A program made the translations under genes and the position numbers. From Rhodospirillales bacterium (GTDB taxonomy: Bacteria; Pseudomonadota; Alphaproteobacteria; Rhodospirillales; Casp-alpha2), in NCBI GenBank assembly GCA_028825025.1, contig JAPKAX010000009.1, positions 1 to 33,751 of the forward strand: a DNA stretch of 33,751 bases, given 5' to 3'. Within the stretch, counting starts at the first letter, position 1. The number at the start of each line of letters is the position of its first letter. The notes under the pieces were generated by a model. The model searched no databases, was not told the DNA's origin, and saw only the letters and a list, made by a program, of their open reading frames with translations. Of the stretch, positions 4,952 through 33,751 are shown piece by piece.

Positions 4952-5292
4952 ACTTTCTGTTGTGAGCGGTTTGGCTAAAACTGCATTTTCGCCAATCTTT
5001 CGGGCTGCGCTCAGATCAAAATCTTACAGCATATTTTTGTAAACCAGTCGATATGGCAATAATCGGCATCTTAGAGTTTTCTTTTCTTATCTGAATCATA
5101 CCCTCAGTTCGGCCCATCCCTGACATAAATAAATCTGTAATAACTAGTTCATACTCAACATTAGAAAACCCAATCAAGGCATTTCCAATAAAATCACTTG
5201 AGATAACGGTTACATTATACTTTTTGAGCACAGCCGAAATAAAACTGTGAATTGGACTGTCATCGTCTAAGGCCAACACTTTTATTGTGCAT
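4919..5292 (-). pseudogene. Single-domain response regulator (CheY-like receiver), frameshifted twice
   Basis: The middle of the gene reads VLALDDDSPIHSFISAVLKK, then ELVITDLFMSGMGRTEGM and MPIIAISTG. These are the acidic pocket, the phospho-acceptor Asp in ITDLFM, and the Thr-containing switch of a receiver domain. The frame then stops at TGA after YAVRF. The missing end lies one frame over: DLSAARKIGENAVLAKPL, including the conserved Lys-Pro, and ending YLR at 4919. Dropping one T of a TTTT run restores it. At the 5' end the ATG at 5292 has an AGGA ribosome site but reaches VLALDDD only if one A of an AAAA run is removed (MHNKVLALDDD). A GTG at 5279 would start in frame without that change. 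Restored length is about 120 aa, normal for a receiver-only protein. Both lesions sit in homopolymers, so sequence error must be considered. Confidence 0.72.
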
Positions 5293-5800
5293 AATTTTCC
5301 TAGCAGATAAAATTAATTCAAATCGGGGCGGTTTGGTCTTGAAGAAATATTTGATCGAAGTTTATAGGGCAAAAGCCTGTTAGGCTATTTTCTACGGATG
5401 CTTATTTAATTATGCGTATTGACATGTAGCTAATAAATGAAGAGCTGGTTATTCTTGTGATTTGGCTGGAACACTATGTCAAAATGGGTGAAGGCCGAAA
5501 AGCTGCTCTTAAAGCGGAACGGGGTTGCCACAGACGTTTCGTGGGTGCCACGAGCGTTACATATACCAATGGACAATCCTGAGGCTTGTGGTCGTGATTA
5601 GATTGACGATAAATATATTATATTTTTATCAGGTTGAGGACTGAACATCTAGACCTTGAGTATTTTGCGTGACGTTAAGTGAACGTTGTGGGAGATTGTG
5701 GTATATGGGTTCAATTTTTGCGCACTTCTGAAGTCGCCGAAAATCTATCCAAAATTAATAATTATTCATTTTGAACAAGCTTTCGGCTTGAGGGAAATTC
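5293..5800. other. Intergenic stretch, no recognisable gene
   Basis: I find no convincing coding sequence here. A short open stretch from about 5458 to 5586 (plus) matches nothing I recognise. A five-base-pair hairpin (AGCCT/AGGCT, 5374-5386) is followed by ATTTT and could be a weak terminator. The segment 5521-5560 contains two imperfect copies of GGNTGCCAC. The last 15 bases before 5801 carry the ribosome site of the next gene. Confidence 0.5.
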
Positions 5801-6061
5801 ATGACTAAAGAAAAAACCCAAACGACTGATACGAAACCCGCCAAAGATAGTGTTTCGACCAAAACCGAGACCAAAATTAAAAAAGATGATAGCCCCTCCA
5901 CACCATCGCCTGCTAAACCGTCAACCGATGGAAAAGATGCTAAACCCACGCCATCTGATTCCCCTGCAACAAAAAAGAAGCCCCATGTTCGCGGTGAGAC
6001 ACAGAAACCCGTTAGTAAAGAGTATCTGAATAATTGGAATTCAATTTTTAAGAAAAAATAG
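5801..6061 (+). CDS. Small Lys/Thr/Ser/Pro-rich disordered protein, function unknown
   Basis: This 86-residue protein begins MTKEKTQTTDTKPAKDS. About the first 65 residues are low-complexity Lys, Thr, Ser, Pro and Asp with no hydrophobic segment, so they are probably disordered and cytoplasmic. The last 25 residues are different and look conserved in style (HVRGETQKPVSKEYLNNWN, then IFKKK), with aromatic and hydrophobic residues that could bind a partner. A GAGGG ribosome site lies about nine bases before the ATG. Composition and the good ribosome site support a real gene. I do not recognise the family with confidence. It stands alone between long non-coding stretches. Confidence 0.65.
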   Translation: MTKEKTQTTDTKPAKDSVSTKTETKIKKDDSPSTPSPAKPSTDGKDAKPTPSDSPATKKKPHVRGETQKPVSKEYLNNWNSIFKKK

Positions 6062-6477
6062 TAGCTTCCATCTGTTCATTCCGTCGAATTCTGAAATGGT
6101 GATATCTTCGGCGTACGATTCCCAATGCCATGCTGGCACGATGCTCGTTCGATGATCTCTTACTTTCAAGGTTATCCTAGGTGCCAGATGTGCAGCAGTT
6201 TGAGGTCAATATAGTAGTGCCTCGAACGGGGTGAGCACTGCTGTATAGGACGAAAATATAACATTAAATTCGACCAAAATCTTGTCTCAGTTCTTAATGT
6301 GCAACGGGTCAAAACGATCGTTGGTGTAGCGAGTGAATATAATTGCCACATAGCTACGCCTGCCGGGGCACGAAAACTTCTTGGCATATCCGAAAATTAA
6401 TTGAAGAAGACAATATGATGAATTCAACAATGGCATTCACTTCTTTCTCGAGCCCGGCCAAAGGAAATCCGTTGCCT
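6062..6477. other. Non-coding stretch downstream of tctA; unidentified open-frame scraps
   Basis: On the minus strand two short open stretches in different frames follow the tctA stop. One contains FPLAGLEKEVNAIVEF (about 6410-6475) and the other MPRSFRAPAGVAMWQLY (about 6335-6387). They could be pieces of one decayed gene that followed tctA, but I cannot assign a family. No clear terminator was seen for tctA. Confidence 0.35.
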
Positions 6478-13497: not shown

Positions 13498-14309
13498 GAT
13501 TTACACTTTTCTATTTCTGCTAAATTCACACCTTTAACTGGATAACATAAATATTATCTTTCTGAAACTCTGCTAAGCCTCAATTTTGGTATTGTGTCCG
13601 CCGTCATGCAATAGGAACATAGAACTTAATCACCTAAAGGAATATCTGGCTCATCTAATTCAAGATATTAAGCGGAGTGTTTTTGGTGTTAGAAAGGTGG
13701 CAAAACGTATCAGTTTCTTTCAAGGCAGTTGCGGTTTTCTGTTGGTCAATATTCATGAAGAACAATGCTGTTTACGTGTTGTCATGCGGAGGTTTTGGCT
13801 TTAGCCCTTGCCGTTTTTTGATATATCAGGTTAATTGTTAAGGCTTTAAATTTTTCAAACCCTGAATGATCCGGCTAACCTGATCATCTATTCTTTTACC
13901 GTTCCACAATAATGGGTACGAATTTCCATCTTTGTATGTGTTGGAAAATCTGTGAAGTAGAGTTGAAATAAGGGTAAATTAGCAGCACGGTTACAGTGTT
14001 TGCGGAATGTCTCGTTGACGTCCGTATCCGAGATTGGTTCCGGTATATCAGATGGGTTAAATAGTTTTCGAAATACTAGCTAAACCCTTTAGAATATTAC
14101 AAATCATCGCAGCGGTTGAGAATGATATTTCTAGTCGGACTGAATATTGAGACCGGGAACGATCTTTCCCAAACTAAAAAAGCATATTTAGTATGACCAA
14201 TCGATTGTGTTCTCATTTTGGGTTCATACGGGGTCCCGACATTCCCCGCCAGATTACCCATGGGATGTAAGCAATTCAGCTATGTCTCAATTCGGCTTTT
14301 CTGCGGCTC
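13498..14309. other. Long non-coding stretch, probably the deleted and scrambled rest of an AtuA-like gene
   Basis: No intact gene was found. On the minus strand several unaligned open pieces occur: GNLAGNVGTPYEPKMRTQS (about 14191-14262), then NRAANLPLFQLYFTDFPTH (about 13938-13995) and SYPLLWNGKRIDDQVSRIIQ (about 13856-13916). They look like protein-coding remnants rather than random DNA, but I cannot assign them. They may be the C-terminal part of the AtuA-like gene at 14310-14530. A plus-strand frame at 13586-13804 has no ribosome site or family likeness and was not accepted. Confidence 0.4.
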
Positions 14310-14530
14310 TCTTTCAGACTATGGCTTTCGAGAACGAGACCGTTCTAACACCAATATAACTGATGACTACGTATTTGATGACGACGTTAATTGTAGGAGC
14401 TACAGTCCTAACGGGTATCCGCGGCAATCACATGTGATTTGCTATCAATAACAGCTTCAAATGCGGCTTTGTGAATACCATAGCCCAATTGCCCAGACGC
14501 CGATAATATGCGCAGAGGCGGCGAGGGAGA
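14310..14530 (-). pseudogene. DUF1446/AtuA-like protein, N-terminal remnant
   Basis: The minus strand reads LRILSASGQLGYGIHKAAFE and AVIDSKSHVIAADTR before a TAG stop. This matches the start of DUF1446 (AtuA-family) proteins, which begin with an RILSPxGxLGYGxPExSF-type segment followed by a DxIAxDAG-type segment. In another frame a little further on, SYIGVRTVSFSKAIV resembles the following YLGxGxSFxSxAxV part. Everything after that is unrecognisable. It lies directly after the broken DUF4387 gene, and DUF1446 and DUF4387 proteins are commonly neighbours. That independently supports the call. Recognition is from memory of the family, so moderate confidence. Confidence 0.55.
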
Positions 14531-14558
14531 TTGACTGCAAAATTTCGATAATAATTTC

Positions 14559-14869
14559 TCAATATCGCACATAATTTAAGGTCCAATAAGAGACCTTGCT
14601 GTTGGGCTCCATAGACATCCCGTCACCGGGTTTTACGGCAATGACGATACGATCCACAACAATGTTTAGGGCATACGTGGGTGGATAAGGAATGTTCTGC
14701 AGCTGTTCAGCCCGAAGGCCATACAGCTTAGCAATATGGGTATTTGTCAGGTTTTTGAAGCGCATGCCGATTTAGATGCTGCGTCTTCATCAAACAAGAT
14801 ATCGATAGTCAATTTTGTTGGGCCGGCATTTTTACAACAAATAACGCGAGCACTATCAACCAGCTTCAT
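14559..14869 (-). pseudogene. DUF4387 domain protein, frameshifted
   Basis: An ATG at 14869, overlapping the end of the MmgE/PrpD gene, opens MKLVDSARVICCKNAGPTKL followed by TIDILFDEDAASKSA. This is the DUF4387 start (SKNAGPxxLTxDIxF). The frame stops at TGA near 14748. The rest continues one frame over as LTNTHIAKLYGLRAEQL, INVV-type strands (ALNIVVDRIVIAVKPGDGM) and SYWTLNYVRY to the stop at 14559. Adding one A to the AAAAA run at about 14752-14756 would restore a protein of about 103 aa, the usual length. DUF4387 proteins are small partners of DUF1446/AtuA proteins in acyl-CoA-type catabolic clusters; their exact role is not known. Confidence 0.72.
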
Positions 14870-16740: not shown

Positions 16741-16791
16741 GAGATCAATTAAATTTATACGGACTAAGAATAATAGAACTGGGATAACGTG

Positions 16792-18189
16792 ATGGGTATC
16801 ATTGAAGCATCAAATAAAACATTCGATATCAATGTACCTGTTCTCGTTATTGGCGCTGGCGCTTGCGGTTGTTGTGCTGCCTTAGCTGCCCATGACGCCG
16901 GTGCCGAAGTTATGATTTTGGAGCGCGATGAAACACCCAGCGGTAGCACTTCATTGTCAGGAGGGCAGGTCCCTGGTGCCGCTTCTCATTTACAAATCAA
17001 GGCTGGGGTTAATGATCCGCCAGACATTCTTGCAAATGATTTGATAAAAAAAGCCAAAAATCAAAACGATCCAGAAATGGCCCGCCATATTGCCGGAGAA
17101 TCTGGAACGACGATCAATTGGTTATCCGAACAACACAATATCCCATTTTCTGTTCAAAATATATTCCTTTACCCTGGGCATTCTGAACAACACATGCATG
17201 TGACGCCTGAGTTAAGTGGAGGCGAGCTGATAACCTGCCTTCTTAATGCCGTTTCCGCCAAAGACATTGATGTTGTGGTTTCTGCCCATGTTACAGACCT
17301 CTTTGCAGATGCCGATGGTCGCGTTGTTGGTGTACAGATTACACGGCCTGATCAAACTCTTGAAACCATTGGATGCCAGGCTTTGATTTTAGCCTGTAAT
17401 GGGTATGGCGGCAGCCCTGAAATGCTAGAGCGCTATATGCCCGAAGTAGCCAAAATCCATTATCACGGGCATGTTGGAAACCAGGGCGACGCTGTGAATT
17501 GGGGGATCGAGCTGGGGGCTAGCGTCTCAGATATGGGCAGTTATCAAGGTTTTGGCGCTGTTGTCACTCCTTTGATGATCCATTTGACGTGGGCCAGTAT
17601 CACCGAAGGTGGTTTTCAAGTTAATAAAGATGGCGTTCGGTTTTCGCATGAAAACCAAGGGTACTCTGAACAAGCACGGAAGGTCTTATCTCAAGAAGAT
17701 GGTATCGCTTGGACGATTATGGACCAGCGTGTGCAAGACGTCGCAATGAGGTTGCAAACGCAGCGTGATGCGTTTGAGCTCGGTGGAATTAAGCATGCCG
17801 AAAATATTCAAGAATTAGCTGATATTACGGGCTGCGACTTGGATACGTTGACCACAACACTAAACGGTGTGGCTGCCATGACGCGGGGTGAAGAGGATGA
17901 CCCGTTTGGGCGTGATTTTTCAACCCATCCTGCTTTGTCAGCCCCTTATTATGTGGCGAAAGTAACCGGCGCACTCTTCCACACTCAAGGTGGGCTAGAT
18001 GTTGATTTAAATGGTCGTGTGCTGCGCGAGGATAGCACTCCTCTTCCTAATTTGTTTGCCGGAGGTGGTGCAGCGCGCGGACTATCGGGCCCTTCTGATT
18101 GGGGTTATTTATCTGGAAGCGGATTAATGATGGCAACAACACTAGGGCGGCTGGCTGGAAGAAAGGCAGGTGAAAGTATAGAGGGCTGA
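16792..18189 (+). CDS. FAD-dependent oxidoreductase, fumarate reductase/3-ketosteroid dehydrogenase-like (copy 1)
   Basis: This 465-aa flavoprotein of the FAD_binding_2 family (PF00890 type) has the dinucleotide fold PVLVIGAGACGCCAALAAHD (GxGxxG at residues 21-26) ending at E44 in MILERDETPSGSTSLSGG. A central substrate domain carries HVGNQGDAVNWGIELGASV. The C-terminal FAD site reads LFHTQGGLDVDLNGRVL and PSDWGYLSGSGLMMATTLGR. Relatives reduce or dehydrogenate alpha,beta-unsaturated acids and ketones. No signal peptide or heme-binding part, so it is cytoplasmic and needs a partner electron donor or acceptor. ATG 16792 is chosen over GTG 16789, with GGGATA upstream. It precedes the ABC importer genes and is closely related to the gene at 29253. 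Confidence 0.92.
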   Translation: MGIIEASNKTFDINVPVLVIGAGACGCCAALAAHDAGAEVMILERDETPSGSTSLSGGQVPGAASHLQIKAGVNDPPDILANDLIKKAKNQNDPEMARHIAGESGTTINWLSEQHNIPFSVQNIFLYPGHSEQHMHVTPELSGGELITCLLNAVSAKDIDVVVSAHVTDLFADADGRVVGVQITRPDQTLETIGCQALILACNGYGGSPEMLERYMPEVAKIHYHGHVGNQGDAVNWGIELGASVSDMGSYQGFGAVVTPLMIHLTWASITEGGFQVNKDGVRFSHENQGYSEQARKVLSQEDGIAWTIMDQRVQDVAMRLQTQRDAFELGGIKHAENIQELADITGCDLDTLTTTLNGVAAMTRGEEDDPFGRDFSTHPALSAPYYVAKVTGALFHTQGGLDVDLNGRVLREDSTPLPNLFAGGGAARGLSGPSDWGYLSGSGLMMATTLGRLAGRKAGESIEG

Positions 18190-22166: not shown

Positions 22167-22550
22167 TTATTCATTTTTTAAGGTGTTCTGGCCGGTCATA
22201 TAAACCGCGACACGATTGAATTTTTCGCCCTCTACTTCAAAAAAGTTACAATTTGATTTGTGAACCTTTTGCCCATCCAGAAGGATGTTATCAATCTCAA
22301 ACCGAACCGCAATTCGGTTCTCATCAGGGCAGGGAACATAAACAAATTTATGGTGCTTTAGGGTGTCGTGGTTGTCCCAAAGGCGCTTAAACATGCTCTC
22401 GATCTGATTATGCCCCTGAAGTTCAACGCCATGTGTTTCAACAGAAAAATTACAATCTGGTGTTAAAGCCTCTTTGATTGCGGAGATATCTCTTCCGTCT
22501 ACTCCTGCAAAATATTTATTTACTAAATCTATCATTTGTTGGCGTGTCAT
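22167..22550 (-). CDS. SnoaL-like/NTF2-fold small protein
   Basis: This 127-aa protein has the NTF2-like cone fold pattern: an N-terminal helix MTRQQMIDLVNKYFAGVDGR, LTPDCNFSVETHGVELQG, a middle KRLWDNHDTLKHHKFVYV and the strands NRIAVRFEIDNILLDGQ and KFNRVAVYMTGQN. Family members are small isomerases, hydrolases or binding proteins; the active site cannot be inferred. ATG 22550 is chosen because GAGGAAAG lies seven bases before it; the longer frame starts at GTG 22592 inside the leader. Its coding strand is opposite to the flanking operons. A second, dead NTF2-like gene lies immediately upstream, so the two were probably an operon. Confidence 0.82.
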   Translation of the reverse strand: MTRQQMIDLVNKYFAGVDGRDISAIKEALTPDCNFSVETHGVELQGHNQIESMFKRLWDNHDTLKHHKFVYVPCPDENRIAVRFEIDNILLDGQKVHKSNCNFFEVEGEKFNRVAVYMTGQNTLKNE

Positions 22551-22579
22551 TTGTCTTTCCTCATGTTTTATCTGGCTCC

Positions 22580-22954
22580 TTATTGGGAGCACATTTCTGC
22601 CATATCATTTCATACCCGCTGAGATTTCAATTTGCCATCTACAATTTGAAATCGGTCGACAAATCGAATGCCCTCGAACAATCGGCCATCGTTGCCTTGC
22701 CCTGATAGGGTGCCAAAACAATAGATGACGGTTTCTTCTTCATTGGACATGTCATCAAATTTTTCAAACGTTTTACCTATCGATTTGTACCTAGACCTTG
22801 ACCAATCTATCAGTTGCTTCAATTCATGGAACACGACTGCTCCGGGAAACGTCATTTCGAAATCATGAGCGAGCATTTCCTTTGCCTTTACAATATCTCG
22901 GGCTTCCATCGCATTTAAAAATTAGCGAACAAGATCAATGGGAGAGGTAGGCAT
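22580..22954 (-). pseudogene. SnoaL-like/NTF2-fold protein with two nonsense codons
   Basis: From ATG 22954 the frame reads MPTSPIDLVR, TAA, then FLNAMEARDIVKAKEMLAHD and FEMTFPGAVVFHELKQLIDW, GTLSGQGNDGRLFEGIRFVD and GKLKSQRV. A TGA follows, and then NDMAEMCSQ to a stop at 22580. The first stop interrupts the N-terminal helix (LVR-FLNAMEARD). The second replaces the Trp expected in a closing QRVWNDMAE pattern (TGG to TGA). All pieces are in the same frame, so these are point nonsense changes, not indels. A 99-codon internal frame from ATG 22909 could still be made but would lack the first helix and tail. A product with function is doubtful. Confidence 0.72.
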
Positions 22955-23966: not shown

Positions 23967-24848
23967 ATGAAAACACTTAGTCTTAAGGCTCAATTAGCGC
24001 GCGGTGACACCATTGTTGCTCCAGGTGTCTTTGATGCCTTTAGCGCATCAAGCGCAGAAAAAGCAGGCTTCAGTGCCGCCTACATATCAGGAGCTAGTGT
24101 TTCTTATTCCCACTTTGGGCTTCCAGATATTGGCCTTGTAAGCATGAGAGAAGTCGCTGACACGCTTTCTAATATTCGCGAGCGCGTCGACATTCCGCTG
24201 ATTGTTGATGCGGACACTGGGTTTGGTAATGCGATTAATGTGCAACGAACCGTTAAACTATTCGAGCGCAATGGAGCTAATTGTATTCAGCTCGAAGATC
24301 AAACAATGCCAAAACGGTGCGGTCATTTAAAAGGTAAGGGACTTGTGAGCACGGCCGAAGCTGTCGGCAAAATCAAAGCTGCCGTTGATGCACGGGCCAG
24401 CGAAGAAACATTGATTATGTCGCGTACCGATGCCATAGCGGTTGAAGGCTTCGATGCAGCTTTAGAGCGCGCTGAACGCTACCTAGAGGCGGGGGCAGAT
24501 ATTCTATTTATTGAAGCCCCTAATAATGAAGACGAAATGCGAACCCTAACCGCGCAATTCAAAGCCCGCGTCCCGTTGTTGGCAAACATGGTCGAAGGCG
24601 GCTTTACCCCCATGTTTGATGCAGAAAAGTTGACTGAAATTGGCTACCGAATTGTGATTTTCCCGGGCGGATTATTTAGGGCCAGATCGTTTATGGAACA
24701 AGAGTATTTCACCAGCTTAAAAAAACATGGTTGGAACAAGCCCTATCAAGACAGAATGCTTGATTTTAAACAAATGAACGAAGCTCTAGGCACTCAAGAT
24801 ATACTTGATGCAGGAGCAAAATATGATGCAGAGAACTTTGATGATTGA
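23967..24848 (+). CDS. PEP mutase/isocitrate lyase superfamily C-C lyase
   Basis: This superfamily cleaves or forms C-C bonds next to carboxylates (methylisocitrate lyase, 2,3-dimethylmalate lyase, oxaloacetate decarboxylase). The 293-aa protein has the metal motif VDADTGFGNA (D81, D83), LEDQTMPKRCGH with the general-acid Cys118 in KRCGH (116-120), and later MSRTDAIAVEGFDAALERA and LFIEAPNNEDEM. KRCGH with length about 290 aa fits the PrpB/dimethylmalate-lyase branch rather than isocitrate lyase. The catalytic Cys makes PEP mutase or phosphonopyruvate hydrolase activity unlikely. ATG 23967 is chosen over TTG 23937. The end overlaps HyuB by 26 bases, indicating coupled translation. Substrate unknown. 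Confidence 0.9.
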   Translation: MKTLSLKAQLARGDTIVAPGVFDAFSASSAEKAGFSAAYISGASVSYSHFGLPDIGLVSMREVADTLSNIRERVDIPLIVDADTGFGNAINVQRTVKLFERNGANCIQLEDQTMPKRCGHLKGKGLVSTAEAVGKIKAAVDARASEETLIMSRTDAIAVEGFDAALERAERYLEAGADILFIEAPNNEDEMRTLTAQFKARVPLLANMVEGGFTPMFDAEKLTEIGYRIVIFPGGLFRARSFMEQEYFTSLKKHGWNKPYQDRMLDFKQMNEALGTQDILDAGAKYDAENFDD

Positions 24849-26571
24849 TCCCGTAACCCTAGCCGTTCTTAAGGGCCGACTTGAGCAAATTGCAGATGAA
24901 ATGGATGCTACCTTATTTCGAAGTGCCTTCAACCCAATCATTGCTGAAGCCCACGATGCTTCTCATGGCATTTACGATGCCATAACCGGTAAAACATTAG
25001 TGCAAGGTAAATCCGGCCTTCCGGTTTTTGTAGGTGCGATGGCATTTGCGGTAAAAGCTGTAATCGATAAAGCAGCAAAAGATGGTAACCTTTCAGAAGG
25101 CGATGTTTATATTTTTAACGACCCGTATGATGGCGGCACGCACTTATCTGACTTTAAACTCGTGAGCCCTTATTACCGGGACGGTAAGCTGTATTGTTAT
25201 TTGGCATCGGTTGGTCACTGGCACGATGTGGGTGGAAATGTGCCGGGTAATTATAATCCAGAAGCAACTGAGTGTTTTCAGGAAGGTATGCTTATCCCAC
25301 CGGTTAAACTCATTGAAGCCGGTAAATTTAGACAAGATATTGTCGATATTATGCAGGCAAACTCTCGTCAACCGATCAGTCTATATGGCGACCTGAACGG
25401 CCAAATTAACGCCCTTGAATTGGGTGAGCGCCGCTTAACCGCATTGTTGGACGAATATGGTGACGCCACCGTTCAAGATGCATTAGTCGAGCTGCAAGTC
25501 CGTGCCGCACAGTTGATGCGAATGAACATTGCCGAACTTCCTGATGGTACATACTCGTGCGACGACTGGCTGGATAACGACGGCATTGTTGATGAGCCGC
25601 TTAAAATTGCACTCGATCTGACCATTTCAGGCGAGACCATGATGCTTGATTTTTCACGATCATCCCCGGCTTGCGCTGGACCGGTTAATATTTCTCTTTC
25701 GACGGCGGTTGCTTCTGTTTATGTGGCAATTAAGCACGTGTTTAACGATGTTCCGGCAAACTCTGGCGTTCTTGATCCCATTGAAATTGTTATTCCAGAG
25801 CATACAATGCTTGCCGTTAAAGCCCCTAAACCCGTGGGTGGCTATACAGAAACGATTTTGCGGCTGATCGATGTTGTTTTTGGTGCGATGGCAAAAGTAG
25901 CTCCTGAACGGAGTAATGGATGTGCGTATGGAACCATTAATGCGTTGTCTTTAGCGGGGCACCGCCGGGATGGTCGACGCTGGGTGATGTTTAGCTTCTT
26001 TGGCGGTGGTCATGGTGGACACCCAGAAGGGGATGGCCTTAATCATGGCAACGCACCGATTTCAACAGCAACCATTCCCCCGTTGGAAATTTTGGAATCC
26101 GCATACCCTATGTTCTTCACTAAATGGGCATTACGCCCCGATAGCGGCGGAGCCGGACAGAACCGGGGCGGCTTGGGTGCTATTTACGAAATAGAATTGT
26201 TAGAAGAAAACGCTGACGTCTTTTTGTTTGGGGAACGCGGGCGTTATGCGCCAGCGGGTGTTCATGGGGGTGGGTATGGGGCTCTCAATACATTCAGTTA
26301 CGAACAAGATGACGGATACCACAAGCCGCCCATGGTATCCAAAATGGTTGGTATTAAAATCAAAAAAGGACAACACCTACATTTGGAAACCCCCGGTGGC
26401 GGAGGTTACGGAAAGGCAAGTGAACGCGACCCCAAAGCCGTCGTGCGCGATGTTGGGTTGGGCTATGTAACTCCTGAAGGGGCAAAGCGTGATTATGGTG
26501 TTGTATTAAATAAAAACGGAACGGTCGATCAAGAACAGACCGATAAATTAAGGGCATCGGTATCTCAATGA
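24823..26571 (+). CDS. hyuB: Hydantoinase B/oxoprolinase family protein (HyuB)
   Basis: This is the B subunit of ATP-dependent hydantoinases, 5-oxoprolinase, and acetone/acetophenone carboxylase-type enzymes. The 582-aa protein has the family start IDPVTLAVLKGRLEQIADEM, the conserved VGAMAFAVKAVIDKAAKDGN then FNDPYDGGTHLSDFKL, HVFNDVPANSGVLDPIEIVI, and the C-terminal glycine-rich RPDSGGAGQNRGGLG and HLETPGGGGYG. The start is ATG 24823 with AGGAG six bases away (a second ATG at 24826 is equally possible). It overlaps the lyase gene and joins HyuA by ATGA. B-before-A order is seen in many bacteria. Which amide or carbonyl compound is used is not visible. Confidence 0.93.
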   Translation: MMQRTLMIDPVTLAVLKGRLEQIADEMDATLFRSAFNPIIAEAHDASHGIYDAITGKTLVQGKSGLPVFVGAMAFAVKAVIDKAAKDGNLSEGDVYIFNDPYDGGTHLSDFKLVSPYYRDGKLYCYLASVGHWHDVGGNVPGNYNPEATECFQEGMLIPPVKLIEAGKFRQDIVDIMQANSRQPISLYGDLNGQINALELGERRLTALLDEYGDATVQDALVELQVRAAQLMRMNIAELPDGTYSCDDWLDNDGIVDEPLKIALDLTISGETMMLDFSRSSPACAGPVNISLSTAVASVYVAIKHVFNDVPANSGVLDPIEIVIPEHTMLAVKAPKPVGGYTETILRLIDVVFGAMAKVAPERSNGCAYGTINALSLAGHRRDGRRWVMFSFFGGGHGGHPEGDGLNHGNAPISTATIPPLEILESAYPMFFTKWALRPDSGGAGQNRGGLGAIYEIELLEENADVFLFGERGRYAPAGVHGGGYGALNTFSYEQDDGYHKPPMVSKMVGIKIKKGQHLHLETPGGGGYGKASERDPKAVVRDVGLGYVTPEGAKRDYGVVLNKNGTVDQEQTDKLRASVSQ

Positions 26572-28634
26572 GTGATCAAGCAAAATATATAGTTGGTGTT
26601 GATGTTGGTGGCACATTTACCGATGTGTTTTTTCTGGATGAACAAAGCGGCGAATGTTCCGTCGCCAAAGTCCCTTCAACCCGACCCAACCAATCTAAGG
26701 GCTTCATTGAAGGTATTAGGTCTGGCGTCGAAGATTTTTCTGAACTTGCTACTGTTGTTCATGGAACCACTGTTGGCACCAATGCACTGCTGGAGCGCAA
26801 AGGAGCTAAAACTGGTATTATTACGACCGAAGGATTCCGCGACGTTCTTGAAATGCGCCGCCGGGACCGGCCAACAACTTGGGGGCTTTGGGGTCAGTTT
26901 GAACCCATTATCCCCCGCAACTTACGACTAGAGGTTCCGGAACGAACGCTTGCCGATGGAACAATTTATAAGGCTGTAAACCCTGATGACGTAAAAGCCG
27001 CCGCTCAAGAATTAATTGATGCTGGAGCTGAATCCGTTTGTGTTGCTTTCATGAATTCCTATGCTAATTTCGACAACGAACAAATCGCGGTTAAAGCTGT
27101 ACGCGATATTTGGCCGAACGAGCACGTAGTTGCTTCAAGTGAAATATTGCCTGAAATTCGCGAATTTGAACGCACATCAACAACAGCTTTAAACGCCTAT
27201 TTGCAGCCCCCCGTTGGCAACTACTTACAGCGCTTAGAAACAGCCCTTCAAGACGATGGTTTCAAAGGGCAAGTTTTGATCGTTCAATCGAACGGCGGTG
27301 TTATGTCTGTTGATGTGGCTCGGCGTTTGCCAGTGCGCACGGCCCTTTCCGGGCCGGCTGCTGGTGTCATTGCCAGTGCTTATATCGCTACCGTTGCTGG
27401 GTTCCCAAATGTCATTACGTGTGACATGGGTGGCACAAGCTTTGATGTTTCTTTGGTTGCTGATGGCGAAAGTTCGCTTAGTGCTCAAACATCCATTGAT
27501 TACGGAATGATTATCCGAACCCCAATGATTGAGATTACGACCATTGGCGCTGGTGGCGGCTCCATTGCTTGGGTTGACCGGGGTGGGTTGTTACAAATCG
27601 GGCCAGAATCAGCAGGTTCAGACCCGGGACCCGTCTGTTACGGGCTTGGCAATGATCGTCCTACCGTAACCGATGCAAACCTTGTTCTGGGGCGCATTAA
27701 TGCAGACCGTCCGATCGGCGGGAAACTTGATCGATTGGATGTGGGTGCGGCAAAATTAGCGATTGAAGCCCATGTAGGAAAACCTTTAGGGCTCGAGATA
27801 ATGGAAGCGGCTGAAGCCATTGTTCGTGTTGCAAATTCAAAAATGGCAGGCGCGATCCGATTGGTTTCTGTTGAACGTGGTCACAGTCCTAACGAATTCT
27901 CGGCCATGCCTTTTGGTGGTGGTGGAGCTCTTCATGCAGGTGCGTTAATTAAAGAAGTGGGATTGAAAAGCGCCCTCGTTCCTCGCTATCCGGGTGTAAC
28001 CAGCGCTTTGGGCTGTACAATTGCTGACATGCGCCATGATTTTGTTCAAACCATAAGCTGCATGCTCGCCGATATGGATATTGCAGGTCTGCAAAACCAC
28101 ATGGGTGAAATGGCGGCTGAAGGAAGAAAGCTGCTTGAGGATGCAAAAGTCAAATTTGGCTCTCTTGATACAGTGTTCGAATTGGATATGTCCTATTTGG
28201 GTCAAACCCATACAGTCGATGTTGCTTTGCCTGTTGAATTTAAAAACGGTGTTGTTCCTGTTTCCGTTAAATTAATCGAAGAAAGTTTCATCGCAAGATA
28301 TGCGCAGGTTTATGGCCGTCCATTGGAAGGTATTCCTGTTCGGGTTCTTAATCTTCGGGTTTCCGTTATTGGCCGTCGATCAAAATTTGACTTACAGCTT
28401 TTAGCGCCTAAAGGTGACAACAGCATTAAAGATGCTGTGCTTGGGCACCGGGATGTTTGGGTCGATGGCGGCTGGCATCAAGCAACGCGGTATGAGCGAT
28501 TGGTGCTGCCTGTTGATGCTGAAATTTTCGGCCCGGCGTTATTAGAACAGCCCGACACAACCATTTTCATCGAGCCTGATTTGGTTGGTACCGTCGATAG
28601 TTATGGTAATCTTATTATTACCCGTCAGGAATAG
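26568..28634 (+). CDS. hyuA: Hydantoinase A/oxoprolinase family protein (HyuA), ATP-binding subunit
   Basis: This is the ATP-using partner of HyuB (688 aa, normal length). The sugar-kinase/actin-like phosphate loop is at YIVGVDVGGTFTDVFFLD (DVGGTFTD, residues 12-19), then VVHGTTVGTNALLERKG. The middle domain shows GPAAGVIASAYIA, then CDMGGTSFDVSLVADGES and TIGAGGGSIAWVDRGG. The C-terminal domain has FGGGGALHAGALIKEVGL. Known members phosphorylate an amide or enol oxygen so that HyuB can open or carboxylate the substrate. The ATGA overlap with HyuB implies a 1:1 complex. Nothing is missing in the motifs seen. Function in this cluster is inferred from neighbours only. Confidence 0.94.
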   Translation: MSDQAKYIVGVDVGGTFTDVFFLDEQSGECSVAKVPSTRPNQSKGFIEGIRSGVEDFSELATVVHGTTVGTNALLERKGAKTGIITTEGFRDVLEMRRRDRPTTWGLWGQFEPIIPRNLRLEVPERTLADGTIYKAVNPDDVKAAAQELIDAGAESVCVAFMNSYANFDNEQIAVKAVRDIWPNEHVVASSEILPEIREFERTSTTALNAYLQPPVGNYLQRLETALQDDGFKGQVLIVQSNGGVMSVDVARRLPVRTALSGPAAGVIASAYIATVAGFPNVITCDMGGTSFDVSLVADGESSLSAQTSIDYGMIIRTPMIEITTIGAGGGSIAWVDRGGLLQIGPESAGSDPGPVCYGLGNDRPTVTDANLVLGRINADRPIGGKLDRLDVGAAKLAIEAHVGKPLGLEIMEAAEAIVRVANSKMAGAIRLVSVERGHSPNEFSAMPFGGGGALHAGALIKEVGLKSALVPRYPGVTSALGCTIADMRHDFVQTISCMLADMDIAGLQNHMGEMAAEGRKLLEDAKVKFGSLDTVFELDMSYLGQTHTVDVALPVEFKNGVVPVSVKLIEESFIARYAQVYGRPLEGIPVRVLNLRVSVIGRRSKFDLQLLAPKGDNSIKDAVLGHRDVWVDGGWHQATRYERLVLPVDAEIFGPALLEQPDTTIFIEPDLVGTVDSYGNLIITRQE

Positions 28635-28643
28635 GTGAGACGC

Positions 28644-29249
28644 ATGATTCAATTTGATCCGAAACGAACTGGTTTTGTTATTTGCGATATGCAAAATGAT
28701 TTTGTTCACCCAGAAGGGGCATATGCACGAGCCGGACAAAAGTCTGCCGCCATTGCTGCCCTTCCTCCGCGTCAGAAAACGGTTGCGGATGCTGCTCGGA
28801 AAACGGGGGCATGGGTTATTTCAACGCACTTTACTTTGGTTCCGGGCAAGGGGGGAAAACCTTTTATTTCGGAACATCTTCATAAAAAACGTCCCTTCCT
28901 TGGGAAAGGAGATTTCGTTCCGGGTAGCTTTGGTCAGGACTTGATTGAAGAACTTCAACCTGCAGATATGAAGGTCGAAAAAGTAGCCTTTTCAGCCTTT
29001 TTCATGAGCCGCCTAGAATGGGTTTTACGCCGCGCTGATTTGGAAACACTTTTGTTTTGTGGCATCGTCACTAATGGCGGCGTTGCTTCAACCGTTCGCG
29101 ATGCACATGTTCGGGATTTCAAGTGCATTGTCTTAGAAGATGGATGTGCCGCTTTTAGTGAAAACGACCATACGTCGACCATCGGTTCCCTTTCTACAAT
29201 CGCAACCATTGCCACCTGCGCTGATGCTGTGGCTGCATTCGAAGGATAA
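28644..29249 (+). CDS. Isochorismatase-fold hydrolase lacking the nucleophilic Cys
   Basis: This 201-aa protein belongs to the isochorismatase/cysteine-hydrolase superfamily. Catalytic Asp15 is in CDMQNDF and Lys113 in VEKVAFSAFF. In amidohydrolases such as N-carbamoylsarcosine amidase and maleamate amidase, a Cys sits in a TxxCV motif. Here the segment is IVTNGGVASTVRDA, with Gly146 at that position. The protein thus resembles the true isochorismatases, which lack the Cys, more than amidases in this respect; its length and GVASTVRDA surroundings are otherwise amidase-like. ATG 28644 is chosen over GTG 28635 because GGTGAG precedes it. It lies between hyuA and the second flavoprotein gene. 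Confidence 0.87.
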   Translation: MIQFDPKRTGFVICDMQNDFVHPEGAYARAGQKSAAIAALPPRQKTVADAARKTGAWVISTHFTLVPGKGGKPFISEHLHKKRPFLGKGDFVPGSFGQDLIEELQPADMKVEKVAFSAFFMSRLEWVLRRADLETLLFCGIVTNGGVASTVRDAHVRDFKCIVLEDGCAAFSENDHTSTIGSLSTIATIATCADAVAAFEG

Positions 29250-29252
29250 CAA

Positions 29253-30650
29253 ATGGCAGTTCTTTCATCCGAAGGCGTTGAGTTTAAAATATCAGTCCCC
29301 GTTGTTGTCATCGGCGCAGGCGCGTGTGGTATGACGGCGGCACTTACTGTGGCTGATGCGGGGGTTGAGGTTCTTGTTCTTGAACGGGATTCCGTCCCCC
29401 AAGGCTCAACCGCTTTATCATCGGGGATGATCCCTGCCTGTGAAACATATATTCAGAAAGCTAAAGGTGTCGAAGATACCGTTGATGCTATGACTGCTGA
29501 TATTCTAAGCAAAGCCCACAATGAAACCGATGCGGACATGGTTAAAGTCCTGTGCCAAGAATCTGGCCCGGCGATCAACTGGTTGACGGAAACACATGGT
29601 GTTGAGCTTGCCTTGGTAGACGGGTTTTTATATCCCAACCACAGCTATTTACGCATGCACGCTCCCGCATCCAGAACCGGTGCTGATTTGATCGGCTCGA
29701 TGACACAAGCTGTCGAGCGGGCAGGAGTTGATGTTTTAACCGATTCAACAGTTACTGATTTGTATGCCGACACAACAGGACATATTTCCGGAATTCGTTT
29801 CACAAGACCAGATGGAACCATTGAGTTGCTGGGGTGTTCGGCTCTGATACTTGCGTGCAACGGATTTGGCGGTAACCCAGAAATGGTCAAACAGTTAATC
29901 CCTGATATGGCAGACGCCAATTATTTTGGCCACACCGGAAACCAAGGCGAAGCCATTCAATGGGGTGAAGCGCTGGGTGCTGCTATGGCCGATTTAGGGT
30001 CCTACCAAGGTCACGGTTCCGTTGCTCATCCACATGGAATTTTGATCAGTTGGGCGCTTATGATGAACGGTGGTATTCAAGTTAATATTCATGGGCAGCG
30101 ATTCTCGAACGAGCATCAAGGGTATTCTGAACAAGGGCGACGGGTCATCGCACAACCAAAATCCATTGCTTGGAATATTCTAGACGCCCGGCTTTATAAA
30201 ATGGGCCAAGGCTTTGAAGATTTCCGCCAAGCGGTATCAGCTGGTGCTCTTATCAAAGCCGATACGCTTTCCGAACTTGGAAATAAATGCGGCTTACCTG
30301 AAGACAGTTTAGCTGCAACGTTGAACGAAAATTCTGAATTGTCATCGGGGAAAGGCACAGATTCTTTTGGACGTGACTTTACATCCAAACCAGACTTACA
30401 GCCGCCTTATTATGCAGTAAAAGTAACGGGGTCGTTATTTCATACGCAAGGGGGATTAGTGGTTGATGCTAATGCGCGTGTTTTGCGCCCAGACAACTCC
30501 CCGTTGCCTAATCTATATGCGGGTGGGGGCGCTGCGCGGGGTATTTCTGGCCCATCCGACTGGGGGTATCTATCTGGTAACGGGCTTCTAACCGCGGTTG
30601 CTCTGGGGCGCATTGCAGGGTGTTCAGCAGTGGAGCTTTGCTCTGATTAA
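29253..30650 (+). CDS. FAD-dependent oxidoreductase, fumarate reductase/3-ketosteroid dehydrogenase-like (copy 2)
   Basis: This 465-aa flavoprotein is a close paralogue of the gene at 16792. The GxGxxG motif lies at the same residues (21-26, VVVIGAGACGMTAAL) and long stretches match, e.g. YYAVKVTGSLFHTQGGL and PSDWGYLSGNGLLTAVALGR. The substrate domain reads HTGNQGEAIQWGEALGAAMA and LGSYQGHGSVAHPHGIL, where copy 1 has MGSYQGFGAVVTPLMIHL. The substrate region therefore differs and could give a second specificity. Its ATG lies three bases after the preceding stop, with AGGAT upstream, so it is the last gene of the 23967-30650 operon. No signal peptide or redox partner domain. Reaction direction (reduction or dehydrogenation) is not visible. 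Confidence 0.92.
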   Translation: MAVLSSEGVEFKISVPVVVIGAGACGMTAALTVADAGVEVLVLERDSVPQGSTALSSGMIPACETYIQKAKGVEDTVDAMTADILSKAHNETDADMVKVLCQESGPAINWLTETHGVELALVDGFLYPNHSYLRMHAPASRTGADLIGSMTQAVERAGVDVLTDSTVTDLYADTTGHISGIRFTRPDGTIELLGCSALILACNGFGGNPEMVKQLIPDMADANYFGHTGNQGEAIQWGEALGAAMADLGSYQGHGSVAHPHGILISWALMMNGGIQVNIHGQRFSNEHQGYSEQGRRVIAQPKSIAWNILDARLYKMGQGFEDFRQAVSAGALIKADTLSELGNKCGLPEDSLAATLNENSELSSGKGTDSFGRDFTSKPDLQPPYYAVKVTGSLFHTQGGLVVDANARVLRPDNSPLPNLYAGGGAARGISGPSDWGYLSGNGLLTAVALGRIAGCSAVELCSD

Positions 30651-31082
30651 GGCTGCCTATGCCTAGCCGTCATATCAATTCCTCAAGGATATTCCATCAC
30701 TATTGAATATATGCACCAACTTCGCATCGATGTTGAATTAAACTTTATCTCCGGCTTTCTTGTCTGAGGTACTGGGTAAGCTTGCAATAAATGAGTGCAC
30801 ATCATCTGTTCTTATATGTCATTACGTAATATGTTATCTCCAGAAATTTAGAGACCAATTTAATACCTCATGTTTAAAGTTAATGGGTTTTTTTTTAGAG
30901 AGTAAAATAAAGAATTTGATTTACGACGGTGTCAGCGCGTTTGGGGACATTTTTGAGAAGACAGCGGGCTTTGATTTGTATAGACAAGCTTGTTGAATTC
31001 TCAGTGGTGATGAATTGGTATTAAATTTTGAATGAATTATCAGTATTGTATTTAGAGCTTAGAACATGAAAAGGATCATTCT
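30651..31082. other. Intergenic stretch between the catabolic operon and the amino-sugar genes
   Basis: No recognisable gene on either strand. A plus-strand frame with a TTG start (30760-30996) has no clear ribosome site and no family likeness. A run of nine or ten Ts at about 30886-30896 has no stem before it, so it is not a clear terminator. AAGGAT at 31071-31076 is the ribosome site of the next gene. Confidence 0.5.
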
Positions 31083-32258
31083 GTGAGTTTGCGAACTGAA
31101 TTTGAACCCTTTTTTTTAGGTGTAGATGGTGGCGGTACAAGTTGCCGTACCCGTCTGTGCAATATGGCGGGGGTCGAGTCGGGTGTCGGTGTTGCGGGAA
31201 GCGCTAATACCACTTTGGGCGTCGATGCTGCATTTCATAAAATAGTTATAGCAATAAAAATGGCTGTTCTTGATGCGGGGCTCATTGATCAATGTTTTGG
31301 CCGCATTTATGCCGGATTAGGTCTAGCCGGTTTATCCTTGCGCCGTGATTATGAAGCCGTCAATTCATATCATCACCCATTTGCAGAACTTTCTGCTGAA
31401 ACTGATGCTTATATCGCCTGTTTAGGTGCGCATCAGGGGCAAGATGGGGGAGTTCTAATTATTGGCACCGGTAGCTGTGGATTATTAATAATGGGTAATA
31501 GTTCTGTTGCCGTCGGAGGGTGGGGCTATTTGATGTCAGACCTTGGCAGTGGCGCGCAATTGGGTCGCTCTGCATTGCGTGGTGCTCTTGAAGAGTGTGA
31601 TGCGTTGTTACCCAAATCAGGTTTAGGTACTGCGCTTATGGCGCATTTTGATGAAAACCCAGAATCACTGGTTACTTGGTCTGAAACAGCAACACCAAAA
31701 TCCTACGGGAGTTTTGTTCCTGAAATTATTAGCCATGCAATTAATAAAGATGAAGCAGCTATCGCCCTCGTAAATTCAACAGCTAATGACATAGAACGAA
31801 TGATCTTGACGCTTATTTCAAAAGGAGCTGCGAAAATTGCTCTAATTGGTGGCCTTGCTGAGCCGATGCTGCCGTGGCTTTCAGAAACAGTTTTGGGTTA
31901 TTTGACGAAAGCGAAGGGTGACCCATTGGACGGTGCTTTGATGTTAGCTCGACAGAAATACAAGCTGGTCGAAGAAGGATTGTTGAGCCAACGACAAGGA
32001 GCAGGGACATTTGTTTCGTCGAGGGTTGAGCAGCTGTTAACAGAGCTGACGGGTTATAGGGAAGATATGGCGGCTTGGGGTATGGCCCCAGATGTTCATG
32101 GCGAGCATAATCTTCCCGTTGTTCAGAACATCAATCTAATCAGTGCACCCATTACCATGATCCAGTTCTTTTATCTTTTTGCCAAATCGCTCTCTCTCGC
32201 AAGAGGGATGAACCCCAATGCTCCTGAGCATCTTCTTAAAGTGGCGGAAACAACATGA
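31083..32258 (+). CDS. BadF/BcrA-type N-acetylglucosamine kinase fused in frame to GntR and SIS-deaminase fragments
   Basis: Residues 1 to about 292 are a complete BadF/BadG-type sugar kinase: FFLGVDGGGTSCRTRL, GRIYAGLGLAGLS, GGVLIIGTGSCGL, WGYLMSDLGSGAQLGRSALR, IALIGGLAEPMLPWL and the natural end GDPLDGALMLARQK. Residues about 293-333 are a different protein: LVEEGLLSQRQGAGTFV and RVEQLLTELTGYREDMAAWG, the wing and first UTRA segment of a GntR regulator. Residues about 334-391 are the C-terminus of a SIS-domain (NagB-II type) aminosugar-phosphate deaminase: LPVVQNINLISAPITMIQFF and LARGMNPNAPEHLLKVAET. Two deletions that kept frame explain this best. The kinase part may work; deaminase and regulator are lost. 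GTG 31083 has AAGGAT upstream. It overlaps nagA by ATGA. Confidence 0.85.
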   Translation: MSLRTEFEPFFLGVDGGGTSCRTRLCNMAGVESGVGVAGSANTTLGVDAAFHKIVIAIKMAVLDAGLIDQCFGRIYAGLGLAGLSLRRDYEAVNSYHHPFAELSAETDAYIACLGAHQGQDGGVLIIGTGSCGLLIMGNSSVAVGGWGYLMSDLGSGAQLGRSALRGALEECDALLPKSGLGTALMAHFDENPESLVTWSETATPKSYGSFVPEIISHAINKDEAAIALVNSTANDIERMILTLISKGAAKIALIGGLAEPMLPWLSETVLGYLTKAKGDPLDGALMLARQKYKLVEEGLLSQRQGAGTFVSSRVEQLLTELTGYREDMAAWGMAPDVHGEHNLPVVQNINLISAPITMIQFFYLFAKSLSLARGMNPNAPEHLLKVAETT

Positions 32259-33397
32259 TGGAAGCTTTAAGCGGCGGGCAAATATTTGATGGGCAATCAA
32301 TCATCAACGATTATGCAGTCCTTATTGAAGACGACAAAATTGTTTCTGTCATTCCAATTAGTGACATTCCACAAGCTGCCAAGGTTATTGATCTTGAAGG
32401 AAGCCTGCTTGTTCCCGGATTTATTGATATACAAGTCAATGGTGGCGGTGGCGTGATGTTGAACGACAAATCTGATGTTGATACATTGAAGATAATCGCT
32501 GAAAGCCATCGCCAGTTTGGCACAACGGCCATGCTCCCCACATTGATAAGTGATGATTTTGTGACTATGCGCGCCACGGCAGATGTAATTTCAAAGGCTA
32601 GGCAACAAAAAATACCGGGTATCATTGGTGTGCACTTTGAAGGGCCATATCTGAGTATCAAACGAAAAGGGGTTCACGATCCCTTAAAAATTCGCCCCTT
32701 TGAAGATCAAGCAAAGGCACTTTATTGTGAACCTGATCTGGGAGTGGTTATTGCAACTCTTGCTCCTGAAAACTGCCCAGAAGGTTTGATACGCGAATTA
32801 TCAGAATCAGGTGTTCGTGTTTTTGCGGGGCATACCGCAGCAAATTATAAAGAAATAAAACACGCAATTACAGAAGGACTGATTGGTTTTACGCATCTTT
32901 TTAACGCAATGACACCAATGGAAAGCCGTGCCCCCGGTGTTGTTGGTGCTGCGCTTGAAGATGCTGAAACGTGGTGTGGCCTTATCGTTGATGGAATACA
33001 CGTCCATCCCGCCACCTTAAAAGTTGCCATTAGCGCCAAACAAGTGGGGAAGATGGTGCTCGTTACCGATGCCATGTCGACGGTCGGAGCAGTAGAACAA
33101 ACGTTCACCATTCGGGGTGAAGCAATAACCGCCATTAATGGCGTTTGTGCGACGGCTGATGGCACTCTGGCTGGATCTGATTTGAATATGGCTTCTGCGG
33201 TTCGAAATACGGTGGAGCTTTTGGGGCAGCCCATTGAAGAAGCCTTACGGATGGCATCCTTATATCCGGCAGAACTGTTAGGGCTGTCAGGCACCGTGGG
33301 ACAGATCAAAACTGGTTTTCAGGCAGATCTTGTTTTGTTGGATAACGCGCTGCGTGTAAAAAGAACTTGGATCTCAGGTCAAGTTCAGTTTCACTAA
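32255..33397 (+). CDS. nagA: N-acetylglucosamine-6-phosphate deacetylase
   Basis: NagA removes acetate from GlcNAc-6-phosphate. The 380-aa protein is full length: LLVPGFIDIQVNGGGGVMLN, metal ligand Glu in GVHFEGPYLS, His in VFAGHTAANY, His in FTHLFNAMTPMESR, catalytic Asp in VLVTDAMSTVG, then ATADGTLAGSDLNMA and ASLYPAELLGL. ATG 32255 overlaps the preceding stop; a GGCGGA site precedes it. Upstream lies the kinase part of the fusion gene that would supply GlcNAc-6-phosphate. The following step, deamination by NagB, survives here only as a C-terminal scrap. So the pathway must use another deaminase elsewhere or end at glucosamine-6-phosphate. Confidence 0.95.
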   Translation: MMEALSGGQIFDGQSIINDYAVLIEDDKIVSVIPISDIPQAAKVIDLEGSLLVPGFIDIQVNGGGGVMLNDKSDVDTLKIIAESHRQFGTTAMLPTLISDDFVTMRATADVISKARQQKIPGIIGVHFEGPYLSIKRKGVHDPLKIRPFEDQAKALYCEPDLGVVIATLAPENCPEGLIRELSESGVRVFAGHTAANYKEIKHAITEGLIGFTHLFNAMTPMESRAPGVVGAALEDAETWCGLIVDGIHVHPATLKVAISAKQVGKMVLVTDAMSTVGAVEQTFTIRGEAITAINGVCATADGTLAGSDLNMASAVRNTVELLGQPIEEALRMASLYPAELLGLSGTVGQIKTGFQADLVLLDNALRVKRTWISGQVQFH

Positions 33398-33751
33398 AAT
33401 ATACATTGGAGAGATACATATGACTTAAAAGGTACGCGTTATTGTTGTTGGTCTATACCGTAAAAGCGGCAAGTGATGGGGAGGTGGATAACGTCCTGGT
33501 TATGTCGATTTTTAATAGCTCTACCCCGTATTGAGTGATTATGCTTGTTTGTATGGTCGCTATTCTTGTCTTCCCAGAAATAGTAATGTTTCTTGCAAAT
33601 GATTTGTTCTAGAGCGTGCTTCTAACTGTAATTAACCGTGCCTGTTTGAATCCATAAAATTGACTCGTTACGTGCTATAAAATGTACGTAGCAGATGCAC
33701 ATCATGAATAAATGTCCAGTTTGCAACATAAGAAACTTTTAAATAGAATAA
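33398..33751. other. Downstream stretch with gene remnants
   Basis: After nagA, GGAGAG and an ATG at 33420 open MT, then a TAA, then KVRVIVVGL, which looks like the nucleotide-binding start of a Gfo/Idh/MocA dehydrogenase cut off after a few residues. The TRAP-like remnant at 33502-33612 follows. Nothing recognisable is seen from 33613 to the window end, and no hairpin terminator follows nagA. Confidence 0.35.
33502..33612 (+). pseudogene. TRAP transporter large permease (DctM) C-terminal remnant
   Basis: The frame reads MSIFNSSTPY, TGA, then VIMLVCMVAILVFPEIVMFL and ANDLF before a TAG. DctM proteins end with a PFLLxMLxxxxLxxxFPxLxLWLPNLLF-like segment, and this scrap has its layout and stop position. 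One internal stop and no upstream DctM sequence mark it as a remnant. The assignment rests on about 35 residues of mostly hydrophobic sequence, so it is tentative. Confidence 0.42.

Follow-up and report, generated by a model that had tools for sequence, protein, structure and literature searches.

A three-part kinase, GntR and deaminase reading frame as a probable by-product of operon decay in a Rhodospirillales genome

The N-acetylglucosamine (GlcNAc) pathway of Shewanella comprises the kinase NagK (SO3507), the deaminase NagB-II (SO3506), and the deacetylase NagA. As reported in an excerpt of PMC2996990, the activities of NagK and NagB-II were confirmed, and the route to fructose-6-phosphate was rebuilt in vitro; the regulator in that system is of the LacI type. 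In alpha- and betaproteobacteria, GlcNAc genes are controlled by the GntR-family regulator NagQ, according to the part of PMC5343134 that covers these regulons. The locus described here draws on the same enzyme families and the same pathway as Shewanella, with kinase and deaminase parts that match the corresponding models under their cut-offs. It differs in that NagB-II is cut to its last 51 residues and in that the regulator of the ancestral operon was of the GntR type. Of this regulator, 43 residues are left, and the likeness to NagQ is one of GntR family membership.

The locus lies near the end of the window, by which we mean the whole stretch of 33,751 nucleotides that was analyzed (G000:C339:1-33751), from a draft genome of 3.45 Mb in 402 contigs (96% complete). 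An open frame of 391 codons starts with GTG at 31083 and ends with TGA at 32258 on the forward strand. It joins a GlcNAc kinase (to codon 295, position 31967), a 43-residue GntR piece (to codon 338, position 32096), two junction codons, and the C-terminal 51 residues of a NagB-II deaminase (from codon 341, position 32103, to the stop) (Table 1). The start of nagA (32255) overlaps the stop of the fusion by 4 bases.

Table 1. Features of the fused frame and its downstream neighbors (positions in the window)
Feature	Position	Strand	Evidence
GlcNAc kinase (BadF/BadG/NagK type), 295 codons, a few residues short of the normal C terminus	31083..31967	+	PF01869, NF046058, kinase of G002, pLDDT
GntR fragment, 43 residues: wing and start of effector domain	31968..32096	+	Alignment with GntR of G002; NF008491; YvoA/DasR
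gntR/nagB junction, common to sibling G003/L007	32097..32102	+	Identical join in L007
NagB-II (SIS) GlcN-6-P deaminase, last 51 residues and stop	32103..32258	+	NF046059 positions 287-329/330; alignment with NagB of G002
nagA, GlcNAc-6-P deacetylase, 380 aa, start overlaps fusion stop	32255..33397	+	TIGR00221; dN/dS 0.18 vs sibling
Possible Gfo/Idh scrap after nagA, stop at codon 3	33420..33455	+	9-residue colinear match, 6/9 identical, E 0.34: weak

Among the NCBIfam models, residues 5 to 293 matched NagK_SO3507 (E = 5e-72), residues 294 to 336 matched the GntR regulator model NF008491 (E = 9e-4), and residues 348 to 390 matched positions 287 to 329 of 330 in NagB-II SO3506 (NF046059; E = 1e-4); all three part matches were under the respective whole-protein cut-offs. 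A search of PDB sequences aligned residues 10 to 291 with the probable GlcNAc kinase 1zc6, residues 287 to 337 with YvoA (2wv0), residues 292 to 337 with DasR, and residues 342 to 390 with positions 301 to 349 of the 350-residue entry 7kqa, whose depositors' name, "FecR," is in itself no deaminase label. YvoA and DasR, the nearest solved relatives of the GntR fragment, are amino-sugar regulators. With the intact genes of G002, a genome of the same genus, as the reference, the junctions fell at 31967/31968 and at about 32097 to 32102. Since the three comparisons were concordant, the three-part make-up is confirmed: the in-frame kinase/GntR/deaminase chimera proposed in the initial annotation, which was made from the sequence alone, is real. 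The two junctions it had placed at 31958 and 32081 also exist, about 10 and 16 to 21 bases further downstream, and the GntR and NagB pieces are 43 and 51 residues long rather than the 41 and 58 it had given.

The ancestral gene order is preserved in relatives. G002 carries the kinase (300 amino acids [aa]), gntR (255 aa), NagB-II (343 aa), and nagA (379 aa) in this order, and in genus g42 the same order was intact in all eight genomes fetched (of 20 matching). These loci supplied the comparison with intact operons that had been suggested as a check, and they agree with the order kinase-gntR-nagB-nagA assumed at the outset. We searched 297 genomes of the order, a sample drawn from a larger group, and scored at most 6 candidates per genome. 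Matches occurred in 39 genomes, and in 21 of these (20 from g42, plus G002) the kinase, GntR wing, and NagB end were colinear, separated by gaps of 194 to 224 bases (kinase to wing) and 1,256 to 1,293 bases (wing to NagB end). The bases missing in the window, 219 by the measure of its sibling species and 1,299 by that of G002, are close to these gaps. A single match spanning all three parts was found in the window's own genome and in no other (one among the 297 genomes sampled from the order and among the 48 of the family), so the fusion is not conserved in many genomes, a pattern that would have pointed to a selected protein. The sibling (G003, contig L007; metagenome-assembled, 89% complete) matched in two pieces, 8 to 297 and 295 to 391.

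This sibling locus gives the order of events. Its kinase sequence is 94% identical to that of the window (833/883 bases), and it has the same gntR/nagB join. Its kinase/gntR boundary is still in place: 219 bases separate the kinase from the wing and include a kinase stop, a gntR start, and a broken half of gntR bearing a one-base gap and a TGA. Because the join is common to both and the boundary is retained in L007, the large deletion is the older one and the small deletion belongs to the window's lineage. In the sequence of events that we propose, a deletion of about 1.3 kb in the common ancestor with G003 would first have taken everything between mid-gntR and the final 51 codons of nagB out of an operon of kinase, gntR, nagB(II), and nagA. 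In the window's lineage, about 220 bp would then have been deleted, comprising the kinase gene's end and the half of gntR that codes for DNA binding; the kinase would thereby have come into frame with what remained of gntR and nagB, from then on a neutral, probably unfolded C-terminal extension. Relative to the G002 frame, the GntR fragment has lost the 76 N-terminal residues and hence a complete helix-turn-helix domain, and the rest of the regulator is also gone; in the deaminase, the SIS domains are absent. The predicted loss of regulator and deaminase at this locus is thus borne out by remnants of 43 and 51 residues. The explanation by two internal deletions likewise holds in outline when set against the G002 and g42 operons and L007, with the amendment that the deletions differ in age and that the larger is common to the sibling species.

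A wrong join of three pieces in the draft assembly would produce the same picture. The genome is split into 402 contigs, and the kinase/gntR join was seen in this one draft assembly. The gntR/nagB join was, however, also present in the separate assembly of the sibling, and the window's genome has one place that matches any part of the fusion at an E value of 0.001 or better, so the search gave no intact copy of gntR or nagB on which a wrong join could draw. We consider misassembly extremely unlikely on these two grounds.

To compare constraint across the operon, we counted synonymous and nonsynonymous changes between the window and its sibling by the Nei-Gojobori method, with Fisher tests. The deacetylase gene nagA was the best constrained part of the operon (dS, 0.116; dN, 0.021; ratio, 0.18; P = 2e-8), followed by the kinase (dS, 0.118; dN, 0.039; ratio, 0.33; P = 3e-4), whereas the tail behaved as expected of neutral sequence (dS, 0.080; dN, 0.081; ratio, 1.0; 17 nonsynonymous and 5 synonymous changes; P = 1.0). 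The nonsynonymous rate of the tail exceeded that of the kinase (P = 0.03) and that of nagA (P = 1e-4). We also divided the tail at codon 41, two codons short of the end of its GntR part. The last 55 codons held 12 nonsynonymous changes and 1 synonymous change; the first 41 codons alone (5 nonsynonymous, 4 synonymous; dN/dS, 0.36) count against neutrality, with just nine changes. Tail identity was 266/288 (92.4%; 22 differences), about that of intergenic DNA (92.3%; upstream, 398/431; downstream, 325/353). The kinase, with 50 of 883 bases different, was not clearly less divergent than the upstream intergenic DNA (33/431; P = 0.18), and nagA was (47/1,140; P = 0.007).

These rates bear on whether the fusion is a selected new protein in which the tail lends the kinase something new, for instance binding or stability. 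The frame is open through 391 codons to the start of nagA, but openness proves little about function: with simulated neutral substitutions (indels excluded), the kinase stayed open in 27 to 65% of trials and the whole frame in 19 to 56%, and we rejected the open frame as a sign of function. AlphaFold, given an alignment of 11 sequences without relatives for the tail, gave a mean pLDDT of 81, with 208/391 residues reaching 90. The last kinase helix runs on into the tail (residues 281 to 331), as a selected extension might, with low confidence beyond about residue 300. By blocks, the pLDDT of the tail was 31 to 63, values that the absence of aligned relatives can by itself lower; the tail models poorly and is probably unfolded. 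With a neutral tail rate, a poor predicted fold, and an absence from the other genomes sampled, a selected fusion is very improbable, and we rejected it. Our preferred reading is that the fused frame is a by-product of operon decay, in which two successive deletions left a neutral tail and the kinase and nagA then served in salvage. We hold this to be very probable, and we infer its flux, expression, and activity components from the genes present.

The kinase part was compared with family models and with its relatives. PF01869 was the sole Pfam match of the whole frame at E values up to 1 and scored above its gathering threshold (E = 1.8e-30; 106.8 bits against 31.5), while the NagK_SO3507 equivalog NF046058 gave 242.8 bits, under its cut-off of 370. 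The sequence is 57% identical to the intact G002 kinase. Predicted confidence in 10-residue blocks was 75 to 98 across residues 11 to 300, and the top Foldseek match was the Chromobacterium GlcNAc kinase 1zc6 (E = 4e-24). Of the 11 kinase loci fetched, we left out L047, a frame with an over-long start, and compared the remaining 10 relatives. The window kinase kept 64 of the 69 sites invariant among them, and 2 of its 5 departures (L33S and E53K) are private to it. In the sibling, a single-base frameshift near codon 8 and a TGA at codon 265 disrupt the kinase, whose private changes where all 10 relatives agree are G133R and A203V. Since each branch has two such changes, the window kinase, although open, is not visibly better kept than the broken copy. 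When changes were polarized with G002, the window branch had 8 amino acid and 5 synonymous changes and the sibling branch had 7 amino acid (one of them the stop) and 10 synonymous changes; 10 amino acid and 8 synonymous changes were left unassigned. A ratio of 0.33, well below 1 (P = 3e-4), indicates that the kinase was under constraint during some or all of the period since the split; the gene is loosening and may be on its way out.

Six control gene pairs from fetched loci of the same two genomes had dN/dS values of 0.05 to 0.18. At 0.18, nagA equals the loosest control pair, and the kinase lies outside the control range. NagA passed the curated cut-off of TIGR00221 (333.8 bits against 225.65). 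Among 136 positions that do not vary in 11 relatives, the NagA encoded in the window differs at 6, and three of its changes are private (A53V, N134S, and P275S); the sibling NagA has 5 departures at those sites, two of them private. From these counts, nagA may also be eroding. The flanking enzymes had been described as kept, which fits nagA (dN/dS, 0.18) and fits the kinase less well (0.33, and broken in the sibling).

The retention of nagA raises the question of translational coupling, under which in-frame deletions reaching the old nagB stop were favored because they kept nagA expressed. The four-base overlap between the fusion stop and the nagA start is what this would predict, and in 9/9 intact loci the kinase and gntR overlap and nagB and nagA overlap or abut (some starts being automatic); the strong constraint on nagA points the same way. 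Set against this, the sibling has an intact nagA, with a low pair dN/dS, despite its broken kinase and gntR frames. The two genes gntR and nagB lie 18 to 52 bases apart in 7/9 intact loci, so coupling is incomplete there. Two in-frame joins would also arise without selection with a chance of about 1 in 9, and open cases are the ones that get noticed. On balance, coupling is an improbable explanation.

Under the preferred account of operon decay, the fate of the pathway depends on whether the genome encodes a deaminase. PF01182 found none in 4/4 genomes of the genus, and the same model had matches in 9/14 named control genomes. In the window's genome, PF01380 matched a 627-aa GlmS-like and a 342-aa KdsD-like frame (named by length and context) and no deaminase, and the NagB-II model NF046059 matched the GlmS-like protein alone. 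A deaminase encoded elsewhere in this draft genome was rejected on these results. Across the comparison set, NF046059 had matches in 39/48 family and 14/14 control genomes, none over the cut-off of 430: NagB of G002 reached 336.7 bits, and all others reached at most 141.4 bits. Outside the NagB of G002, all but two of the matches lay on frames of 536 to 729 aa, as expected of GlmS. A full-length NagB-II was therefore found in 1/48 family genomes (G002, itself under the cut-off). By comparison, nagA was found in 5/48 family genomes at E values up to 1e-30, and in four of these five no full NagB-II was found. In one of them, G001, nagA is retained, and the 11 kb fetched contained neither a kinase gene nor gntR or nagB.

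Glucosamine-6-phosphate (GlcN-6-P) is the substrate of GlmM. GlmM was present above its cut-off in the window's genome, with a weaker match under the cut-off in the sibling (89% complete). As GlcN-6-P feeds GlmM and GlmM is in the genome, losing the deaminase would divert the pathway, and an exit would remain. The initial claim that the pathway was left open-ended therefore does not follow, even though no deaminase was found. The gene content suggests that UDP-GlcNAc can be an end point of the pathway. A glycoside hydrolase of family 3, to which NagZ belongs, is present in 4/4 genomes of the genus, including that of the window. The MurQ model gave only weak matches in the window's genome: the GlmS-like protein and, on contig C355, a frame of 197 aa. 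An excerpt of PMC13046382 describes GlcN-6-P as both the product of NagA and a precursor for cell wall synthesis in a known branch of GlcNAc recycling, and the same fork appears in the part of PMC12617635 that treats it. With regulator and deaminase gone, kinase and nagA would have fed GlcNAc via GlcN-6-P to GlmM and UDP-GlcNAc; cell wall sugar salvage would have replaced catabolism, with nagA still constrained. These observations hint that the neighboring enzymes were kept for such salvage. There is a small chance that the lineage went further and turned a catabolic operon into an unregulated UDP-GlcNAc salvage line, with the in-frame fusion favored because it kept translation running into nagA. 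If so, its general sign would be that NagB is lost repeatedly while NagA is kept; no full NagB-II was found in four of the five nagA-bearing family genomes. The locus also suggests that the kinase and NagA do not necessarily lose their use as soon as a GlcN-6-P deaminase is lost.

The surroundings have drifted in composition. Third-position GC of nagA is 0.39 in the window and 0.66 in G002, a shift towards A+T, and the 23 frames taken as genes cover 79% of the window; both would fit general genome erosion. Gene loss in small blocks is described for insect symbionts in an excerpt of PMC1544356. Scans of the window for tRNA genes and Rfam families were empty. Long stretches without a long frame at 4952-6477 and 13498-14855 are possibly more decayed genes, and a piece at 5016-5312 (minus strand) resembles a response-regulator receiver by eye. 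Two adjacent small frames at 22167-22921 (minus strand; 145 and 103 codons, stop to stop) look SnoaL-type by eye. The frames at 16789-18189 and 29253-30650 are similar FAD-dependent oxidoreductases (466 and 465 aa), paralogue-like and named by eye.

Around the G002 operon, a Gfo/Idh gene follows nagA, and a MurQ-like gene (230.4 bits, under the MurQ cut-off of 302) and a sugar ABC transporter lie on the other side (names by eye). The nag neighborhood of the window instead has hydantoinase/oxoprolinase-like genes: B and A subunits and then an isochorismatase-like frame occupy 24805-29249, upstream of the nag remnant (by eye). Upstream of the kinase, a block at 31013-31033, aattggtattaaattttgaat, resembles one upstream of the intact G002 operon and is possibly an old operator left without its regulator. 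The short match after nagA, to the opening residues of the Gfo/Idh gene of G002, is perhaps another decayed member of the operon. L007 has a matching short frame at 3035-3070, also after nagA and with a stop at codon 3 (E = 1.3), as well as a Gfo/Idh-like stretch with no single long frame at 4429-4688, downstream of an SDR gene (two tblastn pieces, 32 to 34% identity, E = 1e-6).

The fused frame is a clean example, with a readable event order, of a three-part open frame produced by two separate deletions, and it warns against taking such frames for designed multidomain enzymes. Our literature searches for in-frame chimeras formed by decay found no case like this kinase/gntR/nagB frame. In-frame fusion by deletion across neighbors is already known from the mycobacterial PE/PPE genes, where, as an excerpt of PMC2758852 describes, a deletion across adjacent genes leaves one fused gene in frame. 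Homologous recombination between similar genes is implicated there, whereas the genes joined here are unrelated; the present case is tidy but ordinary operon decay. Within the family, a genome of another genus (G021, locus L040) has a kinase followed directly by nagA, with no regulator or deaminase between them and no full NagB-II found. It differs from the window in having no scraps and no fusion, and the two kinases are 40% identical. The GlcNAc branch of peptidoglycan recycling in Caulobacter and E. coli may be a functional parallel: in the part of PMC13046382 that describes it, a GlcNAc kinase and NagA return GlcNAc to GlcN-6-P, which goes into cell wall synthesis. The Caulobacter kinase described there is a ROK-family homologue of E. 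coli NagK, and that bacterium has a NagB homologue and two NagA proteins, whereas the window's kinase is of the BadF/BadG type and stands in a genome in which no deaminase was found.
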